Positions 31,110 through 63,539 of a DNA stretch of 64,000 nucleotides are shown one piece after another. The stretch covers positions 163,737-227,736 of the forward strand of contig KL197730.1 in assembly GCA_000697665.1 (NCBI GenBank), given 5' to 3'. Source of the stretch: Jaapia argillacea MUCL 33604. Lineage: Eukaryota > Basidiomycota > Agaricomycetes > Jaapiales > Jaapiaceae. Under the pieces are notes generated by a model, which searched no databases, was not told where the DNA came from, and saw only the letters and a list, made by a program, of their open reading frames with translations. The number at the start of each line of letters is the position of its first letter. The stretch's first letter is position 1. The translations under genes and the position numbers were made by a program.

Positions 31110-31353
31110 GCAGAGCTCTCTACTCAGTTGAACCAGGGGTAAGAAGTTAGAATCGCCATTGAATACATGTCGCATGCATTGAGATGTCAACTGAAGATAT
31201 GAGGGCAAGACATGACGATTTGAGCATGCAATATATCACTGCGCTGGAGGGTCAGGATCTCGAATAATGCTCGCCATGAGACAAGCGTTCATCACAATTG
31301 ACCGGGGAAGCTCCCAATTACCGGGACCTTACTCATCGGTTCTGCCATTATTA
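31110..31353 (+). repeat. Segmental duplication, block A, second copy (left part)
   Basis: Similar to 28708-28930. It is cut at the CATTATTA target site by the hAT element and resumes at 35507. Confidence 0.85.
31346..31353. repeat. Left target-site duplication of the hAT element
   Basis: CATTATTA, repeated exactly at 35507-35514. Confidence 0.93.
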
Positions 31354-36984: not shown

Positions 36985-37550
36985 TGGGCGTGGCGATTAG
37001 GAAAGGCTTGCTTCGGTGTGGAGGAACTAGAAGGAAGGGTGAGCGTCGTATAGGTGTGCGATGAGTATGATATAACGCTTTGTCGCCAAGTGAAAAGTTT
37101 CGACTGGTGATGATTTAATCTGAAAGCTGGGATGTGAGTGTCTCATGTCGTTGATTATTGTCAGAAGTTCCATTTCATTGTAGATGAATTGTTAAATCAG
37201 GCCTTGATTTAACCTTGTTTCGATCTTCGGTGCTGACCTCACCTGAGTGCAATTCGGCTGTTAAGAATGATCTGGTGGCATTTAGCAATAAAATCGACAA
37301 CGCCCCTATACACATTTTCCCACCTATTCTTGGCTGGCGCCTTCTCTGAGTGCCGTGATGCTGTGCATATCGTGTATGACATGGAGGGCCTACTGATAAT
37401 TTCCTCTCGCTGTCTGAATGTTGGTGGGGTCTTAGAATGTACCTTTTCCCCTCAGTTCTTGCCCTTACCACACATTTCAATCTTCACTGTGACAAGGACG
37501 CGCACGGCGTGAAGTCAGAGGACATTCGAGACCACTCCGTGCACCACTAC
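36985..37550 (+). pseudogene. 3' fragment of the fourth F-box-like gene with flank (block B, second copy)
   Basis: It begins with the same GGCGTGGCGATTAGGAAAGG as 30418-30437 and follows 30415-31060 with scattered substitutions and small indels through the gene end and its 3' flank. The F-box and leucine-rich body are absent. It is a truncated copy left by the segmental duplication. Confidence 0.8.
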
Positions 37551-38183
37551 AGGACTACTTACTGGCTCATGTTGGCAATTGCATTGTCCGGAGTCGATAC
37601 CTCAAATTCATCCTTCTTCATAGGCTCGAGAACTACGGGTGGTGCATTACCGAGCACCTCGTAGCTGCTACGGTTGTCGCGCCCGTCCCTGAACGAGTGG
37701 TGAGAGGTGAGCTCAAAGCCGACCGAACTTGAGGACATGACAATGTGGCGAGGAGACGTAACAGCTAAGTTGTCAACAAGGACAGTTGTGCCAGTGATCC
37801 AGCCGTGATGAATCAATATCAAGTCTGTTACAAGCTTCGCATTGCTACAACAGGATTGTCATCATGTAGATAGGACGAGGAGCAATAGGGTCGGAAAAAA
37901 ACTGCCGACAACCGACGAGTAAGCATAATGAGGGACGTGTAGCGGAAGTTCGACTGCTGAAGTCAAGTGAACCCGAACTGGTATACAAAATCCACTATGA
38001 GCCAGTTGCCCGAAAAGTCGCGAGTTCTAGGACGGAAGGCGAGGGTATAGATATCAACATCAAAGTGTGACCTTGTCTGGGGGAGAAGGGTAAGGGGAGT
38101 ACTAACTCGCAGAGAGTTAAGTACCTGAGATACAAAAAAATGTGCTCCGCACTCGCTTCGAGATACCTCGCATCCAGAAGAAT
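37551..38183. other. Intergenic, no gene seen
   Basis: An 87-codon minus-strand frame at 37559-37822 has no family. The rest is the 3' side of the DUF6593 gene. Confidence 0.4.
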
Positions 38184-38856
38184 CTACCTCCTGCTCTCTC
38201 TCCGCTTCCACTCGAGATAGACAAAGGTAGAAACAATGATGTCGATCATATGTTGCCCATTCGGAAAGATCTCGAGGTAGGATCTACGCTTAGGTGAGAA
38301 GAAACCAGGGGATCCTTCGTGGAACTTGACAACTACAGTGTCGGAGGTATCGTTGAGGACCAGCTGTCAATAGGTGAGTATGTAATACAATCGTCGGAAA
38401 GTGGGTGCAGAGTACGAAAGCGAACTGACCTTCATCGAATGACGACGCATAACCCATTTGTACTCGAGACCATCGGGTGCAGTGAACTTGCGATCGCTGC
38501 ATGAGTGCGTTCCGTCAAGTCCAAAGCCAAAAGCCAACCTAGTGAAAAACTTACCGCCCACAAAACCCTGTCCTCTCTAGCATATTACTCATTGTGAAGA
38601 TCTTGCCTTCGAGTACTAATCGGGAGTGTTGGATATAGCGCCAGTGGATCCTTGCCATCTCTTCCTCATCTCGCTCACTCTCAGCCTCTTGGGAGGAAGG
38701 CCTGCTATACCGAGTGATCGTAGTTGTCGAATGCAATAATTTTTTGGGGGTATGTATTTTGTAGATTGGGTGATCTTGTTCGTCCAGTAGGGTGGTCCTG
38801 AGGACTGAGGCATTGCTAAAGACGAACAATTTTGGCATGTCGCTCTGGCTGGTCAT
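38184..38856 (-). CDS. DUF6593-domain protein
   Basis: Minus-strand exons 38555-38856, 38430-38496 and 38184-38363 close to 182 residues. The sequence follows the DUF6593 pattern of Agaricomycetes: a short N-terminal beta segment (LRTTLLDEQDHPIYKIHTPK), an Arg/Glu-rich loop (SQEAESERDEEEMARIHWRY), then FTAPDGLEYKWVMRRHSMK, LVLNDTSDTVVVKFHEG, RRSYLEIFPNGQHMIDIIV and a final amphipathic STFVYLEWKRRE. The fold is thought to be related to tubby/LURP-type beta barrels; the biological role is unknown. No signal peptide or membrane helix was seen. Introns are normal GT-AG (38497-38554 and 38364-38429). Confidence 0.88.
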
Positions 38857-39644: not shown

Positions 39645-39717
39645 AGCATCGTGGCGCAGTCGGAAGCGCGTGGGGCTCATAACCCCAAGGTCACTCGATC
39701 GAGACGAGTCGCTGCTA
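39645..39717 (+). tRNA. tRNA-iMet(CAT): Initiator tRNA-Met (CAT anticodon)
   Basis: A 73-nt cloverleaf. The acceptor stem AGCATCG pairs with CGCTGCT with one mismatch and A is the discriminator. The D stem is GCGC/GCGC. The anticodon stem TGGGG/CCCCA holds the loop CTCATAA with anticodon CAT. The T stem ACTCG/CGAGT encloses ATCGAGA. A1:U72 and the A-starting T loop in place of TTC mark it as the eukaryotic initiator, not the elongator. There is no intron. A run of T (CTTTTT) at about 39737-39742 is a probable RNA polymerase III terminator. Confidence 0.93.
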
Positions 39718-44340: not shown

Positions 44341-44670
44341 GGCGCCGAGTGCGATGGAATCCCGACGACGGCCCACTAGCGATTTGATGGTAAATATGTG
44401 CATGGTGAGTATCCTGTTCGGGGGTGCTACATACTACTCCTTCCACCCCAAGTAGGCCGTGTTCTTGCCGGGAGTGCAGATCGACTCACGTTTGGAGCTT
44501 TTAGGCCCACTCACTCAGCGACGATTCTATATCATGAGCAAATAGCCATAATTCTCAACTAGTATATGTACGCTCCAAACTTCCCTTCCCTCATCACTTC
44601 TTAGAACTGAACCATCCCTCTGTACTCCCCCGTCCTCAGGCGTGCCCCGTGGACAATTTACCCTACTGCT

Positions 44671-45643
44671 CTACTGTGCAAGATTGGTGGGAAGGCCCGG
44701 GGGCGCTATCACAGTGCGAGCGGCCACCTCTTCACGACGGGTACCGGGATGCTCGATTATTGCACGAGTGCCGTGGATGATGGCTGCGGTGCCAGGGTGT
44801 TCGATCGCTGCGCGACGAGTTTCGTGGATGATTGCTGCGGTACCCGGGTGCTCGATCTCTTCACGACGAGTCTCGTGTATGATGGCAGCGGTGCCGGGGT
44901 GCTCGATCTCTTCGCGACGAGTCTCGTGTATGATGGCTGCGGTTTCGGCGGGGGGTTCGATCTCTGCGCGACGAGTGCCGTGGATGATGGCTGCGGTGCC
45001 CGGGTGCTCGATCTCTTCACGACGAGTCTCGTGGATGATGGCTGCAGTTTCGGCGGGGGGTTCAATCTCTGCACGACGAGTGCCGTGTATAATGCCTGCG
45101 GTACCAGGGTGTTCGATCGCTGCGCGACGAGTTTCGTGGATGATGGCTGCGGTGCCGGGGTGCTCGATCTCTTCGCGACGAGTCTCGTGTATGATGGCTG
45201 CGGTTTCGGCGGGAGGTTCGATCTCTGCACGACGAGTACCGTGTATGATGGCTGCGGTGCCAGGGTGCTCGATCTCTTCACGACGAGTCTCGTTGATGAT
45301 GGCTGCGGTTTCGGCGGGGGGTTCGATCTCTGCACGACGAGTGCCGTGGATGATGGCTGCGGTGCCAGGGTGTTCGATGATTGCACGACGAGTGCCATGT
45401 GCGATTCCCGCAGTGACATGGGTGCCCTCATGTTCGATCTCCTCACGCGCCTATGCAACTGTTAGCTCGTGCAAGTGCTAGAGAAGGAATGTACAGTACC
45501 TGAATCACGCCTGCGTCCACCACCATGCAGGTGCCTGGAATATGTCTATATTAGCCACCGCTGAAGGTAGGCAGGGAGGATTTCGGCCTACCCAAAAGAA
45601 TGGCGGTTGCTACGAAGGCGGCTGAAGGGAAGGAAAATCGCAT
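44671..45643 (-). CDS. Secreted Kex2-type repeat precursor, left-arm copy
   Basis: Minus-strand exons 45592-45643 (52 nt), 45500-45534 (35 nt) and 44671-45450 (780 nt) close to 288 residues. Exon 1 is a signal peptide (MRFSFPSAAFVATAILLG); exon 2 encodes TCMVVDAGVIQ. Exon 3 is an array of 17- and 18-residue units, usually alternating: type 1 AEIEPPAETAAIIHETRR and type 2 EEIEHPGTAAIIHGTRR, with small variants (AAIEHPG..., AIIEHPG...). Twelve units end in Thr-Arg-Arg and a thirteenth Arg-Arg precedes the tail EEVAARTVIAPPGLPTNLAQ. Secreted fungal proteins of this shape (Rep1 of Ustilago maydis, other KEPs) are cut by the Golgi protease Kex2 at Lys-Arg or Arg-Arg to release many peptides. No Cys lies in the array. 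The first donor is GTAGGC, weaker than the GTGAGC of the right-arm copy. Both strands are open across the array only because of the repeat period. Confidence 0.88.
44760..45430 (-). repeat. Tandem 51/54-bp coding repeats
   Basis: About thirteen units of 51 or 54 bp, all multiples of three, encoding the peptide array. Each unit carries CTCGTCG/CGACGAG at the Arg-Arg codons. Neighbouring units differ mostly at third codon positions. Confidence 0.9.
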
Positions 45644-45707
45644 ATTGTTGATGCCGGATGCAGATGAATACCCAGTGACTGGTGAGTTATGTTTGCGTTT
45701 TGCTCCA

Positions 45708-45716
45708 CTTTATATA
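45708..45716 (-). promoter_or_regulatory. TATA box of the left-arm repeat precursor
   Basis: On the minus strand TATATAAAG, 65 nt before the ATG at 45643. Identical in sequence and spacing to the right-arm copy. Confidence 0.7.
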
Positions 45717-46049
45717 CACAATCCTGACCCCCTCGATCGCCCTATCATGTCGCCATATGTACAGATTGTGTCTCACGAACTCGAGGTGGAGAGTCGTGAT
45801 CTCGTGGTTATGGGAGTACTGAGGATCTGAATCAGTCCCAAAATGAAGACCTCAAGCCCATCTTTCTCCCTCGAGAACCATGAGTTCTCCATTGAGGAGT
45901 GCGCACCTCGCGGCTGCCCCAAATATCGCTGCGTCCCTGAGCGCATGGTGATGATATGGTTCTCTCAGTGTCATCTCACATCCAGCAGATTAGCTCTGTG
46001 ATTTCCTTCCGATTTCTGTCGGATGCCTTCCGGTTTGTGTCTTGCGATT

Positions 46050-47470
46050 TCGTACTGCACATCTCCGCATTTCTTGTTTGGTCGACTCTTCCGATATTCA
46101 GATCCAGACGCAGACGAAGCAGCCTATAACACACAACAAGCACACCCATTCCCTTTTCGATACCATGATCGAACACCCCTTCTATAGCTTGAAGAATTAT
46201 TTATTTTTGTTGCCAAGTCTCCCCATCACTACGACGATTTTCAGCCTGTATTACTGAACGCACAGTGAAGGTGAGTCATTCGATGTTTTTTCCGGTTATC
46301 ATCTGGAATTCAGTACGGTACCCCCCTGGACTTCCCCTTCCACCTTGCTGACTACCCCTTCCAGCCCATGTCTCTCTATCTCCGCCCGCTCATTTCTCGA
46401 CTCTTGCCGTTTACACTTCTCAAGTATCAAATTATCTCCCTTCCAGGAGGGGACGTAACATAGACAATGTCTAAACTCGGAGTGTACCTTTCATTCAATA
46501 CAAAGTAACTATCTTAACCGCATCCTTCCGCCTCGATCCTAGATTCTCCATTATTAATATCATTCAGTACCTCTACCGCGACCATGGCTTTCGCCGTGTC
46601 CCTGGATGTATGGCGAACAGTTCTTTTTTCGATCTCCTTTTGTATGTCCTCTCACGTCTCGTGCACCTCAGCTCTGGAAATTGAAAATTCACTCCCAGGT
46701 TTGCACTATCCGTCATCTCAGGATGTCTACGCAGTGAAGGTCGGTCTCCCAATAGTTCCTCTCTGGCCTCGCCCTCCCGAGTTTCGCAGAGACGATTCTC
46801 TACAGCGTGTCACCCACCCCTATAATATGTCCCGGTTCCGAACAGAAGCTGCACGACTAGTTCTTTCCTCTAGAACTTTGCTCTTCCATTCGAAGTCACC
46901 AGCCGGTCGTGTCCGTGGTATATCTGTGGTCGCTTCTCATACTGAGATGCCGGCTATCCCTTCAATCTTCGAAGTCGTTTCTCGGCCTCATATCTCAACG
47001 AAGAAGGTCGCTTTGTTGTCAGCAGGCTGCTAGAATGCTCGCCATCACTGCGAGGGGTCCTCCGTCAGGTCAACGCTGTCATTGTTCGCTATGAACTTCT
47101 TACACACTGGCCTTTCCCATGGTCAGGTACGGTTGGATTTTCTAGGAATTCTTTCATTGGACTTTCCTGACCTAACCTTAAAAATCCCAAACCATTCGCA
47201 GAGCAATGAATCTCGCTCTTACGGGATTGTAACGGAATACGTGAAGGAGCGAACAGCACAAATAAGAGTTGCGCCCGACGTGGGTCAGCGGCGTGACAAA
47301 ATTAGGGCGAAATCTGTGCATGATCTGCATGCGAAGACGGGAGCTCGGAGAAACTACCAGAGTGTACTCTGAGTCATTGGTAGTTGGACTACACGAATAC
47401 GTACCCCAGAGTCGACGCAAACCCACCTTCCTATTGCACAATGCAACCTCAAGGCCCCGGCCAGCTATCG
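46050..47470 (+). pseudogene. Decayed gene-like sequence divergent from the left repeat precursor
   Basis: Stretches that read like protein appear on the plus strand, for example AKSPHHYDDFQPVLLNAQ at about 46215-46265 and GVLRQVNAVIVRYELLTHWP at about 47055-47115, but stops and frame changes separate them and I could not build a gene. Matching pieces exist in the right arm (minus strand, about 51850-53060), in the spacer at 47590-48015 and, weakly, at 26180-27560. The family was not recognised. Confidence 0.4.
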
Positions 47471-47589
47471 GTTCTCAGACCACAGCAATACTTTCGATTC
47501 ATCCCACAATGAACTCGCAACTTGAAGGGTGTCCCCTCTTTCTCAAGTTTTGTATGGTTGACTCATCACTATCGGGCACCTACAGACTC

Positions 47590-48015
47590 TAGACGGGTGA
47601 CTACTTTCCTCCGGGGTTCTGGTCACTCTTGTCTAACCTCAGCTCTGAGATTAAACTGTTTGCTGGTCGTTTCCGAGGGATCCTTTCTGACCCACTTCTT
47701 AGAAACGTGCCCCGGTCATCCCACATGCTTTCACATCTTGATCGGTCTCCTCTCGCAGCCGCTCAAGAACTTCGCTCCGATCTCAGATTCTCCACGAACA
47801 CTTCCTGCTGCGTTGTCGACCACATCAACCACGCACGCGGAAATATCTTCGCTCGTTACGCTCAAAAGGCCCTCCGTCGGGACAACACTGTCATTCTCCG
47901 TTTTGAACCAGGTCGGCCTTCTCTGTCAGGCACACTTTATTTTAGTACTCTCATTGAAGGTGTCCTAGACCTGGCCTACTCTGAGGAATTCTTTGCGTCT
48001 CATGTCGAGCAATAA
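47590..48015 (+). other. Open stretch in the spacer related to the arm sequence
   Basis: The plus-strand frame runs to a TAA at 48013-48015 and includes NIFARYAQKALRRDNTVILR, similar in plan to GVLRQVNAVIVRYE at about 47055. It may be the 3' end of a diverged tandem copy of the unknown gene in the arms. Start and upstream exons not found. Confidence 0.35.
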
Positions 48016-49384
48016 ATAGGCATTGGAATGGAAGACGGAATGGATTAATGAATCGTTGGCTCGACCGTCTTGGATCTAATATACTTGTGTGTTGAAGCTT
48101 GAAATCATAGACTGAGGTTGCGAAACAAAGGGTGAGGTCTGAAAACACAGATACTCAGAGCTCCGCTGCCATAATGCGGGCACTGCAGCAAAACGAAAAT
48201 AGATCCAGAGCTGCACGCGGAGAGTCAGACGGGAAATCGGAGAAAATCCTATTCACTGAGTTACTGGAAGTCGGAGGCTGCGCTACACCTACAAGGTACA
48301 TCCCCATCTGCATCAAGAACGTCTACTGATGATATCTGTGAGCCTCGTCGATTGTGGGGGTGCCCTCCAATCCTGCACAGCGTCATGGGTTCCGATACTC
48401 CTCTGTAGCCGAAGGTCATCAGATGGAGTTCACGAATGTAGCACAGGGATACTTTCGATATGGACCCAGCCTCCAAAGTCTCCGGGAATTGCAGCGCCTC
48501 CACTGCTCAGCGACCATCTCGCCCCCCCCTTCATATTATCAATGATCCGGGTATGAACGGTGCATCGTAAAATACCTTAGCAGCCTCCGATGTCACGCAA
48601 CGGACATGAACTATGGCTCACTCACTTATCATATTTGGCATGAGAAATCGTGAATGTGGTTTCCTGACACAGTGGCTTGTTCTACGCACTCACTTGAGGG
48701 ACGAGTATCCAGAATATCAGGTGGGTAAGCTCAAGATAGCGGCTTACGGGATCCTTGAACTGTATAGGTGACGTGAGACGAAACGGAGCAACAGTTGGAA
48801 GCACGTCAGTCCAAGCTCAGATGATGCATGTGCGTCGCGAGGATAATGCGTGATCAAGACGGGCCAGAGCTTTGAGGGCAGTTTCATCGCTATCTTGAGT
48901 ACCTTTGAGGAGATCGGCGGAGAAGGTGCTACAGCGCTACTATTATTAACGGTGGAAGAACGCAATCGGGGCAGCTGGGGAAACCTGACCAGAAATACGA
49001 CGAATGAGAGCCCAGCTACCCTCCGAACCATCCCGTGTCTTGTAGCACCGACATCCGAGCAAATGAAGATCTCCCATCAAGTCAAGATTAACTTGGAACG
49101 AGTCGCAGGCAAACGGCACCGCAAGCGCAACACGATTCTCGATACTTGATTTGACACAGGCTGGCAAAAACCGGAGGAGAAACGTACATTATTGGAGTCT
49201 TGAAAAGCAGAGGAAGTGAAATCTTATTCCCTCGTGACGGAAACCTTACTCATCAGTTGGTTTGTATGATCTGACAGTCAGTTCGAGAGTAAAGGGTATA
49301 CTGCAAGCAATGGGGGGATGCCGTTACGATTTTCAGGTGCTGTGACTAAGCTGTGACCTGCTGTGACTCTCCGTTACTGTCAAT
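48016..49384. other. Spacer of the inverted repeat, unassigned
   Basis: A minus-strand frame at 48261-48503 has a leucine-rich look (CYIRELHLMTFGY) and could be a remnant of an F-box-type gene, but nothing can be assembled. Confidence 0.3.
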
Positions 49385-49392
49385 GTCGGGGT

Positions 49393-49772
49393 TAGGGCTC
49401 CGAGCGTCCCGAAAACGGTGACGGGCGAAACTTCACGGTCACAAAACTGTTCTGAACCGTTGACGGCACGGGCGTCTGGGACACGACCCGAAAACACGGG
49501 CGTCTGACGGAGTTCGACGATTTTGCTCCTCAGACCCCACTCAGACGATCGGGAGTGCTAAATTTAGCAGTGACGCCACATACGGAGTTCTCCGACTGCC
49601 TCTCTATCCAATCAGAGGCTTCTGCCTTTGGAACCATGGCACGGGCGTCTGACGACCGCAGAAACGGTGCCGCCCCGTATATTTCGGCGGCAAATTCCAC
49701 CGTCTTCGCTTCGACCGTATCCGGTGACGCACGGTCCGTCACAGCGTGGTTACACCACGGTTAGGAGCCCTA
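49393..49772. mobile_element. hAT-type MITE (non-autonomous), 380 bp
   Basis: The ends are a 9-bp inverted repeat TAGGGCTCC. They are flanked by a perfect 8-bp direct repeat GTCGGGGT at 49385-49392 and 49773-49780. The size, the TA-starting termini and the 8-bp duplication are those of hAT MITEs. The interior is GC-rich with no transposase. Its ends differ from those of the hAT element at 31354, so that element is not its obvious master copy. Confidence 0.8.
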
Positions 49773-49780
49773 GTCGGGGT

Positions 49781-51394
49781 GTCACTGAAGTGATTCTCTC
49801 TCCTCCTCTCTCGAATTCTACAACCTCCCCCTGCTCCCTCATGCGTCGACCTATCCTATGCGTAGCATACCCGCTGAAAATGCCACTAGGACCACGTTTT
49901 CATGACAAGGTAAAGAAAGAGAAGCATCTGGCGATGGAACGCGCGACTCGGGCGAGGGCGTATCAGCGCAAAACACTCCAAGCAATAGTTTCAAGTCCTT
50001 ACTCTCTCATTTTCCTGACAATATGGAGTGCATCCAGTCTCACGTTGGTGGGAATGGAGATGGTACTGTCAATCATACCTGCGCCTGCCACCGAGATTCT
50101 CACATCTCACCTCCCCTTTCGCGGATCCCATGGACAACTATGTTAACGGCGATTTCCGCTACCTCCAACAGCTGTACTTGCCTTGCCTATGCATGTCGGC
50201 GCTTGAGTCTGCAATTCTGTCCCCTGATCTCGAGTCGAATTTTCTCTCGGTCCGTCCTCGTAGTCTCAAAACCCCCATGAATTTCGTTCCGGACAAATTA
50301 CGCCACCCCAAGAACGGGAGTACATCCGGTTTTTAGGACGCTAGGCTTATGCAAGTCAGCTTAACTACCATAATTTCAGAATCGATGCATTCGCGTTATC
50401 TCTCTAAAGTTTGGGTGGTAAATCGAACGGCGGGTGTTACTCGTTCACAGATGATCAGGTTCGATTTGAAATGTTATGAGATGTTCTTTCGTAATTATGA
50501 ATTCCTCTTCATCTCCCAAGACAGATTGCATAAGGACAGATCTCCTGATTGGATTGTCCTCGCGGAGTCTCACAATACACACCTGATGGGTCATATCTCG
50601 ATTCTCGAGATATGCTTCCTGAACGTTCATCAACCTCTTCCCTTGCTCGATCTTCAGGAAAAGATGGATCGTCGGCGCGTTGAACGTACCATAGTAGTTC
50701 GGTTCACTCACGAACTTGAAGCGAAGCAGAACACTACCCACGTCGATGCGGGTGCACCTTCCATGTTGACCTCCACTTTGCTTCGAAAATCCAGGTGCTG
50801 CGAAGTGAGGTGGGTGGCAGTGAACTTTCTCTGACCGACGGTGACTGACATTAGACTTTAGGTCGGAATAGCTCAACTTCTTGGTGAGAATATTTCGATT
50901 TGTACTGCGGCTCTCACAAACGTTGCCGATCATTATCACCCAGGATCGACACTTCCAAGATCCATCCCACCCGTGGTCTATCCAAACGGAAAAACTAGAA
51001 ACCCGGATCGACCTATTCTCCTCGCTCTAGAGTATTCGCCAGACATCCGTTCAAACAACCCTGCATCTTCTTCGGTCTCAACGACAACTCGGGCGGAGAT
51101 TGGTTCGTATGCATATATCAAGCACCTACACCGTCTTATGAGAACATGAATCCTACTGGCAACTATTTATCGGTCACTTGAGGATCATTTGGGATGCAGG
51201 CGAATGGTCTAACATTGGAGGTCATTCTGTTCGTATTGCGTCCCATGGCCTTCCGGGCATAACCTTCAGATGAGATTGATAGATCTCACCAATTAAGTGG
51301 AGATGCCGTCGAATCCCGCGTGATCTTCACGCAATCGCTCATAATTCAGCTGCTGTTTCACGTGAGACCTGCCGACTTATAGCCCCCCAGGTTC
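49781..51394. other. Spacer of the inverted repeat, unassigned
   Basis: Open frames at 50349-50834 (+) and 50445-50939 (-) overlap each other and show no known domain. I see no gene I can support. Confidence 0.35.
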
Positions 51395-53308
51395 TTGATA
51401 TTTTTGTTGGCCGCCTAGCGTTGCATTGTGCCATAGGAAGGTGGGTTTGCATCGAATCTGAGGTACGCATACGCGTAGTCCAACTACCAGTAACTCAGAG
51501 TACAATGTGGTAGTTTCTCCGAGCTCTCGTCTTCGTGTGCAGATCATGTACGACATTTCGCCCTAATGTGGTCTCACTCTTGACCCACGTCGGGCGCTTA
51601 TCTGTGCTGTGTCCTGCTTCGCGTTTGACACACTTTTCGTTGCACTAATCCCCAGCCACCCTTCGTCTGAACCGCTACTTCCCCAAGTATACATCAGGTT
51701 CAATACGAGAACAACATACACCAGGGATCGAGCCGGAGATCAACGAGACGATTCCGTTACAATCCCGTACTAGCCACTATTTATTGCTCAGCGAACAGTT
51801 TGGGATTCCTCAGGTCAGGTCAGGAAAATTCATTGAGAGAATTCCTGAAAAAAAATCTAACCTACCTGACAGGTATAGTTCATAACGAACAATGGAAGCC
51901 TTGACCCGACAGAGGGCCCCTCGCAGTGACTATGAGCACGCGGGCAGCCTGCTGACAAGAAAGTGCCCCTTTTCGTTGAGATATGATAGCGATTCTTGAT
52001 CGGTTTTGAGATGAGACGAGAGACAAAATTGAAGATTGAGGGGATAGCCCGCATTTCATTCTGAGAAGTCGCCAGGTGATACCACGGACACAACCGGGAG
52101 GTGAATCGAACGGAAGAGTAAAGTTTTGGAGGAAAGCACTAGGCGTGCGGCTTCTGTTCGGAACCGGGTCATACTATTGGGGTGGGATGCCGCATTGTAA
52201 AGGAGTCATCTTTGCGAAACTCGGAGTAAGGGCAATATTCCAAACTGACTGTCAGAATTATTGTGGCGGTCGGGGAGGAACCTTTGAGAGACCGAACTTC
52301 GCTGCGTGGACATTGTGAGATGATGGAGAGTGCAAAACCTGGGAGTCAATTGCCAAGTTCCAGAGTTGAGGGTGTACGAGACGTGAGAGGACTTACAGAA
52401 GAGGATTGAGAAAATAGGTGTTTACCATGCATTCAGGGGCACAAGAACAGCCGTGGTAGCGGTGGAAGTGCTGAATTATATTGATAATGGAGAATCTAGG
52501 GTCGAGGCGGAACGATGGGGCTAAGATACTCGCTTTGTACTGAATGAAAGGCACACTCAGAGTGTGGGCATGGTCTATTTTGTGAGCGGATTCACCCCCT
52601 CCTGTTAGGGAAATGATTTGGTATTCGAGAAGGGTAAACGGCAAGAATCGAGGAATGGGCGGACGGAGATAGTGAGACACAGGCTGGAAGGGGTAGTCGG
52701 CACGGTTGGAGGGGAAGTCCAGGGGGGTACTCAATTTCAGATTGCATCGAACAACTCACCTTCACCGTGCGTCCAGCAGCACACTGAAAATCGTCGTAGT
52801 AATCGGGATACTTGGCATCGAAAAAAAAATTCTTCAAGGTAAACAAGAGGTATTGAAGCATTGTATTAAACACGCTATTATGGATGTGCTTGTTGTGGGT
52901 ACTGTGGGCCGCTTCATCTTCGCTTGGGTCTGAATGACGGATGAGTCAACCAAACAAGAATTGCGGAGATGTACGTTGCGAAGTCGCCACCGAAAGGCAT
53001 CCTACAGAAATTGTAAGCAAATTGCGGGACTGAGTAGTTGCTCGATGTGAGATGACACTGAAAGAACCATCTCATCTCACCGTGTGTTCAGGGACGCAGC
53101 GATAATAGTAGCAGCCGCGAGGTGCTCGATAATGGAGAGCCCATGGTTCTCGAGGGAGAAGGATGGACTTGAGGTGCTCATTTTGGGATCTATTCACATC
53201 TCTCAGCAATCCCATAACCACGAAGGCACTACTCTCCAGTTCGAGATCGTGAGATGTAATATGCGTGTATGGGGGCATGATAGGGCAATGGAAGGGGTCA
53301 GGAATTTG

Positions 53309-53317
53309 TATATAAAG
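53309..53317 (+). promoter_or_regulatory. TATA box of the right-arm repeat precursor
   Basis: TATATAAAG, 65 nt before the ATG at 53382. Confidence 0.7.
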
Positions 53318-53381
53318 TGGAGCGAAACACAAAGATCACTCACCAGTCACTGGTTCTTCATCTGCAACAGACATCGACAAT

Positions 53382-54919
53382 ATGCGATTCTCTTTCACTT
53401 CAGTCGCCTTCGTGGCAACCGCCATTCTTTTGGGTGAGCCGAAATCATCCCGGCATACCTTCAGCGGTGGCTAATAGAGACATATTCCAGGGAACTCCAT
53501 GGTAGTCGACGCAGGCGTGATTCAGGTATTGTACCTTCCTTCTCTAGGACTTGCACGAGCTGACAGTTACATAGGCGCGTGAGGAGATTGAACATGAGGG
53601 AACCCATGTCACTGCGGGAATCGCACATGGTACTCGTCGTGCGATCATCGAACACCCTGGCACCGCAGCCATCATACACGGCACTCGTCGTGCAGAGATC
53701 GAACCCCCGGAGACCGCAGCTATCATACACGGCACTCGTCGTGCAGAGATAGAACCTCCCGCCGAAACCGCAGCCATCATACACGAGACTCGTCGCGAAG
53801 AGATCGAGCACCCNNNNNNNNNNNNNNNNNNNNNNNNNNNNNNNNNNNNNNNNNNNNNNNNNNNNNNNNNNNNNNNNNNNNNNNNNNNNNNNNNNNNNNN
53901 NNNNNNNNNNNNNNNNNNNNNNNNNNNNNNNNNNNNNNNNNNNNNNNNNNNNNNNNNNNNNNNNNNNNNNNNNNNNNNNNNNNNNNNNNNNNNNNNNNNN
54001 NNNNNNNNNNNNNNNNNNNNNNNNNNNNNNNNNNNNNNNNNNNNNNNNNNNNNNNNNNNNNNNNNNNNNNNNNNNNNNNNNNNNNNNNNNNNNNNNNNNN
54101 NNNNNNNNNNNNNNNNNNNNNNNNNNNNNNNNNNNNNNNNNNNNNNNNNNNNNNNNNNNNNNNNNNNNNNNNNNNNNNNNNNNNNNNNNNNNNNNNNNNN
54201 NNNNNNNNNNNNNNNNNNNNNNNNNNNNNNNNNNNNNNNNNNNNNNNNNNNNNNNNNNNNNNNNNNNNNNNNNNNNNNNNNNNNNNNNNNNNNNNNNNNN
54301 NNNNNNNNNNNNNNNNNNNNNNNNNNNNNNNNNNNNNNNNNNNNNNNNNNNNNNNNNNNNNNNNNNNNNNNNNNNNNNNNNNNNNNNNNNNNNNNNNNNN
54401 NNNNNNNNNNNNNNNNNNNNNNNNNNNNNNNNNNNNNNNNNNNNNNNNNNNNNNNNNNNNNNNNNNNNNNNNNNNNNNNNNNNNNNNNNNNNNNNNNNNN
54501 NNNNACACGGTACTCGTCGTGCAGAGATCGAACCTCCCGCCGAAACCGCAGCCATCATACACGAGACTCGTCGCGAAGAGATCGAGCATCCCGGCACCGC
54601 AGCCATCATCCACCCCACTCGTCGTGCAGAGATCGAACCCCCCGCCGAAACTGCAGCCATCATACACGAAACTCGTCGCGAAGAGATCGAGCACCCCGGC
54701 ACCGCTGCCATCATACACGAGACTCGTCGTGAAGAGATCGAGCACCCGGGTACCGCAGCTATCATCCACGAAACTCGTCGCGCAGCGATCGAGCACCCTG
54801 GCACCGCAGCCATCATCCACGGCACTCGCGCAATAATCGAGCATCCCGGTACCCGTCGTGAAGAGGTAGCCGCTCGCACTGTGAAAGCGCCCCCGGGCCT
54901 TCCCACCAATCTTGCATAG
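53382..54919 (+). CDS. Secreted Kex2-type repeat precursor, right-arm copy (array partly unsequenced)
   Basis: Exons 53382-53433 (52 nt), 53491-53525 (35 nt) and 53575-54919. The signal peptide is MRFSFTSVAFVATAILLG and the mini-exon reads NSMVVDAGVIQ. The array starts AREEIEHEGTHVTAGIAHGT and continues with the same two unit types as the left copy; eleven Arg-Arg sites are visible outside the gap. The tail EEVAARTVKAPPGLPTNLA ends at TAG 54917-54919, one residue shorter than the left copy. The gap (53814-54504) lies inside the array; its stated length is not a multiple of three and would shift the frame, so the length is probably an estimate. New variants include a unit with ETAAIIH lacking one residue (AEIEPPETAAIIHGTRR) and one with HPTRR. 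Same promoter, intron positions and end as the left copy. Confidence 0.87.
53814..54504. other. Assembly gap (691 N)
   Basis: A run of N inside the tandem peptide-repeat array. If the missing DNA continues the array, there is room for about 13 further units, but the true length is unknown. Confidence 0.98.
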
Positions 54920-55270
54920 TAGAACAGTCGGGTAAATTGTACATGTGGCACGCCTAAGAACGAGGGAGTGCAGAGGGATGGTTCAGTTCTGAGAAGCGAC
55001 GAAGGAAGGGAAATTTAGAGCGTACATGTACTAGTTGAGAATTACTATGGCTGTTCGCCTGTGATATAGAATCGTTGCTGAGTCAGTGGGCCTGAAAGTA
55101 CCGAATATGAGTCTATCTGCACTCCTGGCAAGAACTTGGGGTGAACGGAGTGGTATGTAGCACCCGTGAACAGAATACTCACCATGGCGTATACTTACCT
55201 TGAAATCGCTACTAGTGGACCGTCATAAGGATTCTGTTGCAGTCAGCATGGCATACAGAGCCTGGGGTCG

Positions 55271-55940
55271 CTCATGAGCGGGCGGTTAGGTCGAGATACC
55301 GCTCAGCGGCACATACATCGAGTCTGAGTGGGCGTATTTATGAAGTCACTTCTGGGACGCGTCGCATTTCGATTCAAGTGGAGTTGGGAAAATGAGAAGA
55401 CAACTGTGCAGGAGCAATTACGATTACGACTCATGCAAATCGTAGGATACAAAGTGGAATAGCGTCTCCAAATCCACAACGAACAGGGCACCGGGATGCC
55501 AGGATATGGATCTACTTCAATCCGGGAACGATGAAAGTCATTACGAGGCAGTAGTGATCAATCGATGAATCTGATGGATGGAGAAAAGTCTGTCATGATG
55601 AGGATTGTAAAAAACGATGAGAAATGTGGGTTGAGAGGGATTGGGGATGGATGGTAAGGGTGATGAAGAAGTCGTAGAAAACTTATGTATGTAGTGAATG
55701 AGGAATAAGTGAATGCATGCGTGACGATGAATGCTCCAGGAGTGAAAAATGAATATGAGGTTTGTAGAAGTTGAAACATAGACTTATGTCGCCTATGCCA
55801 GTAGAACAGTGATGAAACGAGAAAAGAGTCTGAAAAAAGAAAACCGAGACCAGGGACGGAGTCCATCCATCCATTACACCGACTCAACACACCCACCAAA
55901 CAACTTCCAAGCCAATTTCCTTGATCTGCTCATCTAACGA
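55271..55940. other. Intergenic, no gene seen
   Basis: Outside the right arm, at the 3' side of the minus-strand membrane-protein gene. A short open frame at 55558-55899 is probably chance. Confidence 0.4.
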
Positions 55941-57323
55941 CTACCTGGCCCCACCAACAAACACAGCCATCCAACCCCAAAGCGCCTGGACCAAAAGCTG
56001 AACCAACCAAGCAGGGTCGGCAGCGATTGGCAACACACGAGAATTGATCCTCCTCTCCCCACTTCCTGTGCTAGGTGGCATTTGCATAGCATAGCTAGGC
56101 GGCATGCCTCCTGGAACATTCAAGTCCAACGTAGACGCGGAAGCGGAAGCGAGGGTAGCCCAAGCAGGTGCTGGAGAAGCCGAAGCCGATGAGGGGATTT
56201 CACGCATTTGGAGGGGTCGGCGGGTTGGGGTCGAGTAAGGTGATGAGGAAGCGGAGGAAGGAAGGCGGTGCAGCTCGGGATCGGGGAAGTATTGGGATTG
56301 TCGAGGTGTAAGAGATGGAGTTGAATGCTCGTCGTCCTCTGCATCGGTGAACTTCTCGTTGAGATCTTCATCTCCGCTGTCGGACGAGTAATCTGGAGGT
56401 GGTGGATCGTCAAAGTTAATGAGATCAACACCGCCCTCCTCGTTCAAGGCTTCAACAGCAGGTTCTCCTGCTTCCGACACGACCACACCAGCAATCAACC
56501 CTTTCTCCTTCATCGAGACACCCCGTCTTGTTCGTGGGCCTCCAACGCTATTCCCTCCGTCACCCAACCCTTTCTCAACTGAGCCTAATACCTCCCAAGC
56601 CCTCGCATCTTTAGCAATCCATCCTCGTACCCAGCTACTCGCGTACAATCCGAGAGCGACGCAACCGAAAGTCAAGAAAGCGGCAATGACACTCAGATAA
56701 GCGAGAAGGAGTGGTGGTGGTTCCGAAAGAATTTTCGAGAAGGCGGATTGGAGGTCGGTCGTAGGTTCGGGTAAGGTACCTTCTTCGTCGGCCTTCTCCT
56801 GCGCCCCTAAACTCTCTTCGCCATCGCCAACAGTCAACTCCGCTTCTAATTCTTCTAAGGGCCTTTCGCCACCATCAAGGTCATCCAGTTTCCCTCCGAG
56901 AACTTCATACAACTTTCTCTCCTCTCCGTCCTGGATGGGGACGATCGCCTTTATGGCATCGATATCGAGGGCTTGAATTTGGGAAATAAAAGCTTGCTGT
57001 TCCGAGGGTGAAGTTAAATGAACTCTAATGTCTTCGTCGGGTGTCGGGAGGCCACTGGATGCACTGGTCAACACCTTTTCGAGGAGGAAAAAGTTGTGAG
57101 AAACACACCCTGTGCGGGATTGGAAATACGCATGTACGGCATCTTGAACCTCCGCATCTTGTTTCGATATACTATTAAGCATCAAGATCAATATTGACAA
57201 CGGATATAGACCAGATTCAACGCATTGTACGCACATGTCTGATTGAGAAGATTCTGGCAAGATTGGACGCGCTGTAACGACCAGCGCGAGGAACGAGAAG
57301 GAGGCCAAGACAGTCCAAGTCAT
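55941..57323 (-). CDS. Hypothetical secretory-pathway single-pass membrane protein
   Basis: Minus-strand exons 57235-57323 and 55941-57171 close to 439 residues. The start at 57323 gives a clear signal peptide (MTWTVLASFSFLALVVTARP); an in-frame Met 24 nt upstream is less suitable. Residues of about 30-190 form an acidic lumenal part (LEELEAELTVGDGEESLGAQ). One membrane helix follows (LLLAYLSVIAAFLTFGCVAL, then YASSWVRGW), then a disordered Pro/Ser/Asp-rich tail with PPPPDYSSDSGDEDLNEKF and Thr-Pro sites. The C-terminus ends in a hydrophobic stretch (LVQLLVQALWGWMAVFVGG). Family not recognised. Confidence 0.75.
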   Translation of the reverse strand: MTWTVLASFSFLALVVTARPILPESSQSDMCVQCVESGLYPLSILILMLNSISKQDAEVQDAVHAYFQSRTGCVSHNFFLLEKVLTSASSGLPTPDEDIRVHLTSPSEQQAFISQIQALDIDAIKAIVPIQDGEERKLYEVLGGKLDDLDGGERPLEELEAELTVGDGEESLGAQEKADEEGTLPEPTTDLQSAFSKILSEPPPLLLAYLSVIAAFLTFGCVALGLYASSWVRGWIAKDARAWEVLGSVEKGLGDGGNSVGGPRTRRGVSMKEKGLIAGVVVSEAGEPAVEALNEEGGVDLINFDDPPPPDYSSDSGDEDLNEKFTDAEDDEHSTPSLTPRQSQYFPDPELHRLPSSASSSPYSTPTRRPLQMREIPSSASASPAPAWATLASASASTLDLNVPGGMPPSYAMQMPPSTGSGERRINSRVLPIAADPAWLVQLLVQALWGWMAVFVGGAR

Positions 57324-58212
57324 ATTGTAGACCAGTATAATCAGCACGAGCCTTCAAACAATCGCTGGGACTGCGAGGCAAACGATTACGGGGGGAGCGA
57401 CACTTGGTCGTCTGAGGTGGGACGGGGCGGAGCAAATAGTGCCATGTCGCCACAGAAGCCTCGAGGTTACCACGAGCGCAACGCCGAAGTCACGCGTTCG
57501 AACCTCTCCCGAACTCTGACTTCCACACGCTTTTCCGGTATGCCAGCTGCCAGTAATGGTCAAAATACTTGGAGGACCTGCATATATGCTGGCTTCATTC
57601 CTCCATATGTGTACGGTTGTCTTATCTCTGAACTATGCTGCCCAGGCTGGTGGATTTGTCGGAGCGCCCCCATCACCCACCGATCCATCATTGCGTTGAA
57701 GGTTCACATGGCTGGCCTGATTCTACCGAGGTTGATTCGCCTCAACGTATCGACGAGGAGCGCCTGCTCACCTGTCGGGTCGCCCAAGCCAAAGTGGCGG
57801 CCTGTGACTACTCATCTATTTTGTCCCAAGCGTTGGCGTTCAGCAATCGCTGAGCCAGGAGTTGGACATTCAACTGCTTCAGTTACCACCTGATTTCGGT
57901 CGTCTCTGATTTCGATGATCGCCCCCCGAAATTCTTTTCTACCGGTCTAAGTGATACAACCTTCACCACGTGCAGATGCAGCGCCTTGGTATTGGTGTCT
58001 GTCCAATGAACGGCTATGGGGAGATAACGCGGCCGGAGGGTCGTTATCCCCGTTGTCTATTTACATCGGGGCTCCGTTACAGACGGTCCGATGGAGGAAA
58101 TCACTCTGCCCTACAGAATATCTTTCTTGATCCGGGTTTTCACCACCTCCTCTGAATGCTGGTATATGAATGGCGAACCCACCCTCATTCTTCCTTGTTG
58201 CCCTCCATCACT
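57324..58212. other. Intergenic between divergent genes
   Basis: The shared upstream region of the membrane-protein gene (minus) and the first tandem P450 (plus). An open frame at 57243-57893 overlaps the start of the membrane protein antisense and has no domain. Confidence 0.4.
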
Positions 58213-60381
58213 ATGGTGCTGACATTAGTTGACGCCTTGCTGGGATTAGCGGGAATATTTCTCCTGAGACAGCTCTTCGCTCGTAAACAACATACCCCTC
58301 TCCCTCCAGGTCCCAAAGGCCTGCCTCTTGTGGGAAATGTGTTGGATATGCCGAAAAAGCAGCCCTGGATTACTTTCAACAAGTGGGGGGAACAATTCGG
58401 CAAGTGGTCACATTCCCTTTTTTCTTTTGCCGCGCATGTGTCTTCGTTTTCTGAAGCTGATGCCAATGTTTCTTATCAGGAGATGTCTTCTACCTCAACC
58501 TTCTCGGTCAACCTATGATCATCCTGAATTCAGCTAAACAAGCAATCAACATTTTGGACAAGAAGAGTTTAATCTACTCTGACCGACCCTCGTTGGAAAT
58601 GTGTAACATGACAGGGTGGAACAAAGGTCTTGGGCTGCTTCCGTATGGAGACGATTTCCGTGAGACGAGGAGGATGTTTCATGGCGTCATGGGAAGTAAG
58701 GCGAGCATGGAGAAGTTGATGCCCATTGTTGAAGAGGAGACGAAGAAGCATTTGATCAGGGTTTTAGAAGACCCCGACGAGGTCGCCCAGTCAATCCGGA
58801 AGTCAGTAGTACTTCAAGTTCTGAGCATCGCCATTTCTCATCAAGTCCATATTTTTTTCTTTAGGACTGCTGGCGCCATCATTTTGCTTATGGCATACGG
58901 GTATAGAGTCAAAGAAGGCAACGACCCATTGGTGGATCTCGTCGATGCTGGTATGGAGGAGTTTGCGATAATGACCTCGCCGGGCGCCTTTCTCGTCGAC
59001 GTATTCCCAATCCGTAAGTATCGCCGGCCCTCTTCTCATTGATTGCATCCCTCTTACCCCGAAATCCAGTCCGCCATGTCCCATCCTGGTTTCCAGGTGC
59101 AGGATTCAAACGACTAGTCGTTGAGTGGAAGAAGACCTGCGCCGATTTGGTCGCACTCCCTTTTCAATATGTTGAAGAACAAATGGTAAGCTCCCATTTT
59201 CTTGAACGTATGTCTTGAAATATGAATTGTTCGGTATCAGGCTGCTGGCTCCGCTACGCCTTCATTCAGCTCAGCTCAACTTGAAAAGGGAAATTTCACT
59301 GAAGAAGAATACGTGGTCGTCAGATGGGCTGCTGCTTCCATGTACGCAGGTAAGGCTTGACCTTCTCTCTTCACGCAATTCCGGTAATCATAAATCGGTA
59401 TTTCAGGCGCTGCAGATACGGTGAGTGGCCAAAACCTCAATATCGTATTGCTCGACGGCTCACATCCCCCCGCAGACGGTGTCAGCATTATACTCGTTCA
59501 TTCTTGCATTGACTCTATTCCCCGAAGTTCGAAAGAGAGCCCAGGATGAGATCGATAAAGTGGTAGGAAATGATCGACTGCCTTCACTCGACGATAGAGA
59601 CGACCTGCCTTACCTCGAGGCTCTCGTCAAGGAGGTTTTCCGATGGAATCCTGTTGCACCTCTTGGTAAAACCGGATGATCCATCGCTTATGCTACTCGA
59701 CTGAACGATGAACAACAGGCTTGCCCCATCGAGTTACCCAAGACGACATTCACGAAAACCATTTCATCCCCAAAGGGTCGATCGTCATTGCTAACATTTG
59801 GTATGTTTGCTCACACATTTCCGCCCGTCGAGGCTGGGATCTTAATCCTTGTTACAGGGCTATCTTGCACGACCCACAGACATATGCCAATCCGATGGAG
59901 TTCAACCCGGAACGTTTCTTGCCTTCACCTGGCCGCGAGGCAGAAGTTGACCCTCGTACATTCTGCTTCGGATTCGGGAGACGGTAAGTTTCCAGCTCAA
60001 CCAATGATAATGTATTGAATCCCACTCTGCAACGAAGCATTTGTCCAGGTAATTTGTGTTTTGTTTGATTCATCAGCCGTTTGTTCAAAAACTTATAATG
60101 GAATGTGCAGGACTGAACCTCGCAGACGCCTCCGTCTTCCTGTCTTGCGCAATGACTCTGGCAGTTTTTAACGTGTCCAAAGCCCTTGACGCCCACGGCA
60201 ATCCAATCGATCCGATCGTCGAGTATACTGACAGCACTGTCAGGTATGTATTTCATACTTTTCTTGTCGACCCCCGAGTCACCATTAACCTCACCTCGCC
60301 TGAAGCCATCCGAAGCCCTTCAAGTGTAGCATTACGCCACGATCGACGAAAGCACAGAGTCTGATTCATTCTGTGGATTAA
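58213..60381 (+). CDS. Cytochrome P450, tandem copy 1, 12 exons
   Basis: Exons: 58213-58399, 58480-58801, 58865-59013, 59070-59185, 59241-59349, 59407-59420, 59476-59665, 59719-59800, 59858-59983, 60038-60048, 60111-60243 and 60306-60381. Phases close to 504 residues. The N-terminal anchor is LVDALLGLAGIFLLRQLFA, followed by the proline hinge [14 protein letters not shown]. Motifs: the I-helix GADTT (split over a 14-nt exon), ExxR as KEVFR, FNPERF, and the haem loop FGFGRRICPG, where the Cys lies in an 11-nt exon. The layout resembles the P450s often annotated as O-methylsterigmatocystin-oxidoreductase-like in Agaricomycetes; the substrate is not known. The first intron starts with GC (GGCAAGT), as in the neighbour copy. 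Confidence 0.93.
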
Positions 60382-61396
60382 GTAGTTGGATGTTCTGTTG
60401 GAGACATCCCGGGGTACACACACTCTCGCCTGATTATAATAAACATACCTTCCTATTCCTTGGACCGATTGTCTATTCTTCAACCTCAGTCAGTTGTCGG
60501 AATCGTAGTAGGGACTCTGAAGATCTGAAGGACGAGGGTAAGTGGCTAGGATTAACTTCGATCGTTGACCGTCACCACTGTGACAGCATCACGTGCCATC
60601 GTTCATCTTTTCGTCTCCTTTCCGACTGCTCCTTTCTCAACCACTGAATGTCACTCGTTTGATTCACTTCTGGGCACACAATCTGGCGAAGTCGGAATAT
60701 CTGATCGACAATAGAACCGACGGAACTTCGAGCTATTCGATAGTACCTAGCGCCAACTATGCGGGGTTCTGATTGGCGCTGAGACCAACAAAATCGCAAT
60801 AAGAATTCAGTCAAGGCATCACGTTGTCAGCGATAGCTCCTGGTTATCTGAGATAACACACGGCTATACGTATGTTTGCACTTCTCTGCCAAGCTTAGCT
60901 TTGGACTTTTCAGCGCCTATTGCGATGGGCGCTCTTTTGCGTATTCTTTCTATACACAGCACCTCCATCATGTGAACTGGTTGAACAGGAACGTCCAAAC
61001 AGATGCCACGGTTCCTGCTTCTGGATACTTCGGTATCTCATTATCTGCACGTTCCCTTTGAGGGCAGTGATACGGCACTGGTGAATCTGTTGCAACCTCT
61101 GGCCCTGGGACCCCCACATTTCATCATCAATGCCGAGTATCCCCACCGCTTTCATTAGCGCATATCAATTAGTGAAGTATGTCCTCACCTCTACTTTTGC
61201 CCGGGGGGGTTAAATGATATTCGTTTCGCCGTTATCATTGGCAGAAGAGGACCCCATATTGTGGATAAATTCCTTCTCTTCCGCCACTATATCACCACGT
61301 TCCGAATCTGTTTTTTATCTCGTCCGTCTTTGCTCCACCATATTTAAACCAGAGTCTTGCCATATTCTTCCTCCTCCCCTCTTCAAGTTTACCACA
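60382..61396. other. Intergenic between the tandem P450s
   Basis: No gene was seen. TATTTAAA at 61341-61348, about 50 nt before the next start codon, is a possible TATA element. Confidence 0.45.
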
Positions 61397-63539
61397 ATGC
61401 AGCCAACTACACTCGACATCCTCATGGGATTAGCTGGGATATTCCTTGTAAACCGACTAATCTCTAGCAAGGGGCGTCCGCCATTACCTCCTGGTCCCAA
61501 GGGTCTCCCTGTCATCGGGAATGTGTTTGATATGCCCAAACGGCAGTTCTGGTCGGCCTTCAAAAGCTGGGGGGAGAAATATGGCAAGTCCCCAATCCTC
61601 TATCTACGCCTCAGTTTCGAACGGATCTGAGATATTGATCTGACCGTAGGGGATATTGTCTACGTCAACCTGCTCGGTCAGCCCATGATTATCGTGAACT
61701 CTGCCAAGCAAGCGATAAGTATGCTTGACAAGAAAAGCTCGATTTATTCGGATAGACCATCGCTGGAGATGTGTAATATGACGGCCTGGAATGAGATCCT
61801 CGGAATGTTGCCTTACGGGGACCGATTACGCGAGACTAGGAGGATGCTCCATGGTGTAATGGGGAGTAAGGCGAGTGTGGAGGGTTTATATCCGATAATT
61901 GAAGAGGAGTCGAAGAAGTACTTGACCAAGGTGTTGGATGATCCCGACGAAGTAGCGTCCTCGATTCGACAGTCTGTGTCCTTTCCCTTTCCCTTTCCCC
62001 CAAGTTTCGCAGTTGGTTGATCGATCCTTCAACTTGACAGAACTGCGGGAGCCATCATTCTGCGGATTGCGTACGACTATCACGTCAAGGAGGTGAACGA
62101 CCCATTCGTCGAGCTCGTGGACAAAGCTATCCAGGAGTTTTCCATCATAACCACCCCAAATGCATATCTTGTTAACGTATTTCCTATTCGTAAGTATCAT
62201 AATGACCCTTTAAACTCCTTCGATTCTTACTAGTTTTGCTCCAGTACGATATATCCCTTCCTGGTTTCCGGGCGCGGGCTTCAAGCGGACGGCAACTGCA
62301 TACAAGCAGACTTGTACGGATATGGCAACACTCCCTCTGCGATACGTTGAGGACCAAATGGTATCTTCTTGACTTTTTTTTTCTTGCATCTGAATGTTCT
62401 CATTGTCATGAAGGCGGCTGGGAATGCTTCTCCTTCCTTCAGCTCCGCTCAGCTAGCTAGACAGCTAACGGATGAACAATATATAACAATGAAGTGGGCG
62501 GCAGCTTCGTTATATGGAGGTAAGTTGTATCTCTGTTCAACGAGATAATCGGACCTTATGCATCGGAATGTCCAGGTGGTGCTGATACCGTGAGCCTAGT
62601 CGAACTGTTGGCACGGGAGCATATCACTTACCCGTGCCTTTTAGACGGTTTCATCCCTCCACTCCTTCCTTCTCGCCATGACTTTATTCCCAGAAGTCCA
62701 ACAGAAAGCGCGCTCGGAGATCGACACAGTTGTAGGCAACGATCGGCTACCGTCCCTTGCTGATCGAGAGCACTTGCCGTATATCGATGCTCTTGTCAAG
62801 GAAGTCCTTCGCTGGCATCCGGTCGCTCCTCTTGGTGGGAATTCTCCCTTTCTGATCGCAAATGTTCTCTGATCTGGATATGGCAGGTTTGCCCCATAGG
62901 GTGGTGAAAGACGACGTTCACGAGGGCTACTTCATCCCGAAAGGCTCTATGGTCATTGCAAACATATGGTTTGTGTTCGTCTTGGTCTATGAGTTAGTTG
63001 AAAAGTAAAGGTGACTTCAGGGGTATCCTACACGATCATCAGGTTTACGCCAATCCGATGGACTTCAATCCCGATCGTTTCTTGTCTGCACCAGGACACG
63101 ATGCTGAGGTTGACCCCCGCTCCTTCTGCTTTGGATTCGGAAGGCGGTACGTCCGTGTGGAGATTAATCTCAGGTGCACGTACTGACGCGAACATTGTCT
63201 GGAGGATTTGTCCAGGTTGGCATAATTTGCATCCGTTGACTGTTCACAGACTCAAAAGGGGATTCTTAGGTCTGAAACTAGCTGACGCGTCTGTCTTCCT
63301 CTCTTGCGCGATGACTCTCGCCGTATACGACATCTCCAAGGCGATTGATGTCAATGGCTCTCCCATTTGCCCAATCGTAGATTTTACCGATGCTACCGTT
63401 AGGTGCAGATCTCGTGCCTCCCGCAATTGTATTGTTACTGATATAACCTCCGCGCGGTACCAGCCATCCAAAACCCTTCAAGTACACCATAAAACCGAGA
63501 TCCGCGAAGGCTGAAGCTTTGATACGATCCGACTCTTGA
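61397..63539 (+). CDS. Cytochrome P450, tandem copy 2, 12 exons
   Basis: Exons: 61397-61583, 61650-61971, 62041-62189, 62245-62360, 62414-62519, 62576-62589, 62645-62834, 62887-62968, 63021-63146, 63205-63215, 63270-63402 and 63464-63539. Phases close to 503 residues. Eleven exons have exactly the same length as in the copy at 58213; only exon 5 differs, by three bases. Motifs: anchor [16 protein letters not shown], hinge [15 protein letters not shown]-helix GADTT, KEVLR (ExxR), FNPDRF and FGFGRRICPG. The first intron again starts with GC. A tandem duplication with substantial divergence, so the two enzymes may act on different substrates or steps. Confidence 0.93.

Follow-up and report, generated by a model that had tools for sequence, protein, structure and literature searches.

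An inverted gene pair in Jaapia argillacea that probably encodes KEX2-processed repeat proteins, and a nearby gene that shares its leader

KEX2-processed repeat proteins (KEPs) have been defined by at least three tandem repeats of at least eight residues, none longer than 100 residues, set between the dibasic sites KR, KK, RK or RR (PMC7329392), and, by the criterion of Le Marquer, by repeats that make up at least 15% of the protein (PMC6339444). By one reported census, 1345 of 1461 strains carry 7878 KEPs between them, of which 2560 have no homologues (PMC7329392); another counts 1193 members in 226 species (PMC6339444). The peptides are described as widespread in fungi and mostly without known function; linear, minimally modified ones were found in four mushroom species, and knocking out six kep genes had no apparent phenotypic effect (PMC9769878). 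Here we describe a pair of genes in the arms of an imperfect palindrome within a 64,000-nucleotide stretch of the genome of Jaapia argillacea MUCL 33604 (contig KL197730.1, positions 163,737 to 227,736; hereafter the window, in whose numbering all coordinates are given). We put at roughly 70% the probability that both genes encode KEP precursors cut to linear secreted peptides, duplicated in inverted orientation and held by purifying selection.

Like described KEPs, the pair has at least three similar units between dibasic sites in a compact array, here behind a putative signal peptide; 191 of the 288 residues in the left precursor belong to single units, of which there are 11, all 17-18 residues long and ended by RR. 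Most basidiomycete KEPs are reported to lack DUF3328 neighbours, as the pair does in the stretches that we scanned, and 767 KEP genes have another KEP gene nearby (PMC7329392). In those parts of the KEP literature covered by our search we found no inverted KEP pair that, like this one, shares its leader with a non-repeat gene. By layout, the nearest named protein is Ustilago maydis Rsp1, a protein of 260 residues in which 11 imperfect and hydrophilic repeats, 18 or 21 residues long and with putative Kex2 motifs, stand in tandem (PMC4617103); repeats in the pair have 17-18 residues. Rep1 of U. maydis is likewise a Kex2-cut repeat precursor in a basidiomycete, but its peptides are reported as amphipathic and 35-53 residues long (PMC4617103), whereas those predicted here are acidic and have 15-16 residues, with an isoelectric point (pI) of 4.1-6.0 and a grand average of hydropathy (GRAVY) of -0.24 to 0.47 in the three of nine variants that were computed. 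A Rep1-type repellent, one of the analogues offered in an initial annotation of this DNA, is thus not supported, on peptide length and on the hydropathy of those three peptides. That annotation had also put the pair forward as its best candidate for an undescribed system, a reading that is not supported, since the architecture is that of a named class (PMC6339444, PMC7329392, PMC9769878). The peptide sequence alone may be new, and the locus adds a well-preserved KEP pair with a clear gene model and predicted peptide masses rather than defining a new kind of system.

Both genes conform to the three-exon model with a 35-nt second exon that had been proposed for them, with predicted GT-AG introns in each arm. 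The left gene, on the reverse strand, begins with a 52-nt exon (45592-45643) that encodes the signal peptide MRFSFPSAAFVATAILLG and is followed by the splice donor GTAGGC, continues with the mini-exon (45500-45534; TCMVVDAGVIQ), in which a likely signal-peptidase site falls at VDA|G, and closes with 259 codons and a stop (44671-45450) whose translation is an array of TRR-ending units of 17-18 residues. The right gene, on the forward strand, has its exons at 53382-53433 (52 nt; signal peptide MRFSFTSVAFVATAILLG), 53491-53525 (35 nt; NSMVVDAGVIQ) and 53575-54919, agrees with the left gene at both ends and stops one residue before it; its array is broken by 691 unspecified bases (N) at 53814-54504. 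In both genes the introns measure 57 and 49 nt and carry CTAAT, CTAAC or CTGAC 10-15 nt ahead of the 3' end, a TATATAA box stands 73 nt upstream of the ATG, and the translation shows by eye the traits of a signal peptide, namely a Met-Arg start, a hydrophobic core and the VDA|G site.

The description of the arrays in the initial annotation stood in its main points and needed correction in others. Units of 17-18 residues ending in TRR are evident in the translations, and Arg-Arg is kept at nearly all unit junctions, 13 of 14 in the left array and 11 of the 12 visible in the right (first unit and partial gap unit counted), the single-Arg junction occupying the same position in both. Left exon 3 opens with a unit of 22 residues and closes with a 20-residue tail; between them lie 11 units of 17-18 residues and one double unit of 26 residues that lacks one Arg. 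It contains no Phe, Trp, Tyr or Cys. A long array in both arms is confirmed for the left, which is complete, and only in part for the right, where the run of N intervenes. The two unit types that had been named are both present, accompanied by seven further variants (nine in all), and their alternation is not strict: the 12 full units of the left array read, in order, H A H A H H A H A H H H, with 8 of 11 neighbours differing. A 35-residue higher-order repeat fits the right array past the gap, where Tandem Repeats Finder scores a period of 105 nt best (473, against 374 for 51 nt); in the left array the best period is 261 nt (score 997), followed by 156 (831) and 105 (705).

Changes between arms and between units are mostly silent, as had been noted for the units; an absence of bias to silent positions had been named beforehand as ground for abandoning the reading, and the bias is present. 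Between the arms, 26 of 33 coding changes are synonymous and 7 non-synonymous, compared with 26% synonymous expected from site counts (binomial p = 2.8e-10, on the assumption of independent changes and with no correction for transition bias). Exons 1 and 2 together have 6 synonymous and 4 non-synonymous changes, the start of exon 3 has 5 and 0, and exon 3 after the gap has 15 and 3; this comparison left out the last sense codon of the left gene, which lies opposite the stop of the right gene, and the mid-array that lacks a counterpart owing to the gap. Of the 23 changes within exon 3, 20 are silent when read in the coding frame but just 1 when read in either of the other sense frames. In an alignment of 21 units, variation is seen at 14 of the 16 third positions, compared with 9 of the 32 first and second ones (Fisher p = 1e-4, a guide only, the units being related), and in the 19 units used for comparing frames the ratio of non-synonymous to synonymous differences (pN/pS) is 0.28 in the coding frame, compared with 4.71 and 1.05 in the other sense frames. 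The unit test left out both 22-residue first units, the C-terminal tails, two partial gap units and the second halves of both 26-residue units, together with the Ala codon of PPAET in seven 18-residue units, for length match. Because 26 of the 33 inter-arm changes are silent while synonymous divergence lies mostly within the range of the flanks, the comparison shows both copies, in the parts outside the gap, to bear the pattern of purifying selection on the protein.

Comparing the window with itself bears out the inverted arms that had been claimed. They form an imperfect palindrome of ~10 kb, with a left arm at 44344-47447 (reverse strand) and a right arm at 51420-55247 (forward strand) that are 77-89% identical across three collinear blocks; the outer part of each arm is one gene pointing outwards, making the pair divergent, and the halves of the ~4-kb spacer have no homology to each other detectable in this self-comparison. 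We rejected a conserved long gene in the inner arms, as the four longest left-arm frames there (171, 112, 89 and 87 residues) hit stops in the right arm. Divergence between the arms is 0.16-0.25 in the flanks and 0.11 in the introns, and inter-arm synonymous divergence (dS) is 0.33 in exons 1 and 2, 0.19 at the start of exon 3 and 0.16 in the 138 codons after the gap, the last 98 of which give 0.084. From these divergences and the silent-change counts, the arms are an old block duplication in which the gene was copied in inverted orientation, and selection has maintained the protein of each copy. There is no need to explain the likeness of the arms by gene conversion alone, because the three inter-arm dS values lie within or above the range of the flanks; local conversion is possible, the last 98 codons and the introns falling below flank divergence. 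The length of the 691-N gap looks like an estimate, because the reading frames on either side are out of register across it. Within the spacer, a 380-bp element at 49393-49772 has terminal inverted repeats of sequence TAGGGCTCC and is flanked on each side by the 8-bp target duplication GTCGGGGT; it resembles a small non-autonomous hAT-type transposon, a class that we assume from the 8-bp duplication.

Under the KEP assignment, the signal peptide would be removed in the endoplasmic reticulum at VDA|G, a Golgi Kex2-type protease would cut behind each Arg-Arg, and a Kex1-type carboxypeptidase would trim off the Arg pair, the last two steps being modelled on the architecture and on published KEPs. 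From the left precursor alone, this would release 11 peptides of one unit each, 15-16 residues long, with AEIEPPAETAAIIHET and EEIEHPGTAAIIHET present three times each, EEIEHPGTAAIIHGT twice and three variants making up the rest, in addition to a first piece, a fused double unit and a tail. Computed [M+H]+ values are 1691.85 for AEIEPPAETAAIIHET, 1646.80 for EEIEHPGTAAIIHET, 1574.78 for EEIEHPGTAAIIHGT, 1458.77 for AAIEHPGTAAIIHGT and 1500.82 for AIIEHPGTAAIIHGT; peptides that begin with Glu may also occur as pyroglutamate forms. The released peptides would be linear, unmodified or little modified, and secreted; we expect linearity because the scanned stretches contain no UstYa/DUF3328 domain and the cores have no Tyr, Phe, Trp or Cys, and cyclisation is unlikely. 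A secreted, Kex2-cut repeat precursor, as originally proposed, is the best reading and passed the silent-change test, whereas Kex2 cleavage, secretion and function are what we infer from the sequence. As to role, an extracellular signal or a peptide that acts on other organisms would be our tentative first choice.

Several observations tell against the KEP assignment. Kex2 usually favours KR over RR, the putative signal peptide and cleavage site come from inspection of the translation by eye, the middle of the right array is hidden by the run of N, and shorter inner-arm frames, up to ~60 residues, are open in both arms. One antisense frame of exon 3 has 18 of 23 inter-arm changes silent, compared with 20 of 23 in the sense frame (the other two antisense frames have 1 of 23 each), and over the 19 units one antisense frame has a pN/pS of 0.36, compared with 0.28; we prefer the sense frame because leader, introns and stop decide for it. 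IE, TAAI and much of the unit are as conserved as RR, and we therefore do not single out RR as a functional feature. This conservation, and the junction with a single Arg in both arms, favour a secreted repeat protein that stays whole, for instance a disordered or beta-solenoid protein of the wall or surface, in which the Arg pairs are merely part of the repeat. The same can be said of an AlphaFold2 model of the bare left array made without alignment, which is strand-rich and of moderate confidence (mean predicted local distance difference test score, pLDDT, 67.6; predicted template modelling score, pTM, 0.54), and of the antisense control, which is less steady over five models (29.3-62.2, compared with 55.3-67.6). 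The best antisense model is, however, likewise strand-rich, with a pTM of 0.54 and a pLDDT of 62.2, AlphaFold2 is reported to invent beta-solenoids for repeats (PMC11795689), and Foldseek with the left array model gave 103 PDB matches at E <= 10, not one of them at E <= 0.001. Because the antisense reading has the same pTM, Foldseek found no match at E <= 0.001 and solenoids are reported to be over-predicted, we attach little importance to the model; the genes have the architecture of KEPs, and we consider a protein that stays whole unlikely.

Cytochrome P450s act in some dikaritin-type pathways, and the palindrome has P450 genes to either side. The dikaritins (ustiloxin, phomopsin and asperipin) also come from repeat precursors with Kex2 sites, a layout identical in plan to that of the pair, so that the genes could be imagined to encode precursors of this kind of ribosomally synthesised and post-translationally modified peptide (RiPP), another analogue in the initial annotation, with cores cyclised by UstYa-type (DUF3328) enzymes. 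The pair's cores, however, lack Tyr, left exon 3 has no aromatic residue or Cys, and six-frame Pfam scans of 18201-53000 and 54601-64000 gave no match to PF11807 at E <= 0.01, although the same scans did detect intron-split P450, DUF3684 and DUF6593 genes; within 1-18200 Pfam covered two reading frames, and 53001-54600 lay outside the Pfam scans. A six-frame scan of the whole window, 1-18200 included, for the H..HC motif, a mark of UstYa, gave 7 occurrences and never two in one open reading frame. A DUF3328 neighbour is reported for just 103 of 1680 basidiomycete KEPs (PMC7329392). A dikaritin-type precursor is not supported, and it is the reading to which we give least credence. KEPs that resemble alpha-pheromone precursors and are trimmed by STE13 are known in basidiomycetes (PMC6339444, PMC9769878), but here the residues after RR are AE, EE or AI, not XA or XP, with a fitting AA in 3 of the 21 aligned units, and the core has no aromatic residue, which makes such a pheromone highly improbable. 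Nucleotide diversity is very high in some mushroom fungi, and this, like the 691-N gap inside the right array, would suit an assembly artefact in which two alleles of one locus were set head to head; the left arm, the ~4-kb spacer and the right arm to 53813 are nevertheless all free of gaps and the flanks diverge by 15-22%, and we regard an artefact as very unlikely.

The leader of the pair recurs in a third gene on the reverse strand at 25750-26075, found by blastn (68% identity over 314 columns, E = 2e-24). Its predicted exon 1 (26033-26075; 43 nt, MRFSSTSVVLAIVLG) is three codons shorter than that of the pair, its exon 2 (25938-25972; 35 nt) encodes TSAVVNAGVID, and its exon 3 (25750-25887; KREEIIPITLVEEITPVTVHGGIGIATVHGGIATVHPARATDVAK) encodes KR and then one 43-residue core with no dibasic array, ending in TAA; the introns measure 60 and 50 nt. 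Compared with the right gene, its exons 1 and 2 are 79% and 71% identical, its two introns 70% and 57%, and its 5' flank 68%. A TATA box lies 69-73 nt upstream of the ATG in all three members; the introns of the three genes have GT-AG ends, and five of the six have a branch point resembling CTAAY/CTGAC, the sixth having CTAAA. The leader of the third gene aligns to that of the right gene with a score of 67, which none of 1000 shuffles reached (mean 20.7). A relation of its core to the array was rejected, as the score of 30 was reached by 525 of 1000 shuffles (mean 30.9). An nhmmer search of the window that took the 5' region of each of these genes as input recovered the three source places, matched by construction (weakest E = 6e-86), and no further place below E = 0.02. 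At 37599-37705 (reverse strand), a 107-nt stretch resembles the right gene's 5' flank (53075-53175) with 75% identity, and the nhmmer search found no leader beside it.

Promoter, leader and mini-exon are thus common to the third gene and the pair, and the third core is non-repeated. In the inverted pair the predicted third exon carries a Kex2 array; in the third gene it carries KR and then one 43-residue core, which is unrelated to the array. Whether these genes represent a small family of secreted-peptide genes, in which a constant leader (signal peptide, 35-nt mini-exon and promoter) is joined to exchanged third exons, is doubtful on present comparisons; if true, it would give a fungus an exon-based means of swapping the cores of its secreted peptides. 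With a paralogue that has retained the leader and lost the likeness of the core, the locus opens the origin and replacement of cores to study by comparison. Related F-box-like reading frames at 8591-11259 and 24128-24988 form two direct copies and, near the third gene, an inverted partial copy; the F-box-like name was given by eye, and 10342-11445 has no Pfam match.

Searches with the array returned no relatives. The left array matched no Pfam family at E <= 1, and four unit strings were absent from the text of the papers searched, a search of main text as distinct from supplementary KEP tables. Two stretches in viral contigs and 29 in prokaryote genome contigs, neither collection being fungal, matched short patterns of the array protein, and none was confirmed. 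Three PDB lectins matching the array protein at E 0.18-0.33 were taken as chance, as were weak viral-protein Pfam names, below the curated cut-off, at 46518-47030 (E 0.13) and 50448-51026 (E 0.2).

Elsewhere in the window, the cytochrome P450 genes on the two sides of the palindrome, all on the forward strand, have approximate limits of 41.4-43.9, 58.2-60.6 and 61.2-64.0 kb, the latter two forming a tandem pair that is 65% identical over 1979 columns. A two-piece gene at 38196-38808 (reverse strand) matches DUF6593, a domain typical of mushroom fungi, and the Pfam scan also found the DUF3684 gene split by introns. On their own, the P450, DUF3684 and DUF6593 genes and introns of 49-60 nt would suggest DNA of a eukaryote with short introns, probably a basidiomycete. 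Mobile sequences are represented by a DDE_3 transposase frame at 1460-2092 and a fragment of a hAT transposase dimerisation domain at 31696-31851 (reverse strand). Dispersed direct repeats pair 28707-28917 with 31111-31321, 29026-29273 with 35561-35812, and 30487-31068 with 37015-37573 (211-608 columns, 70-85% identical), and a tRNA gene lies at 39645-39717.

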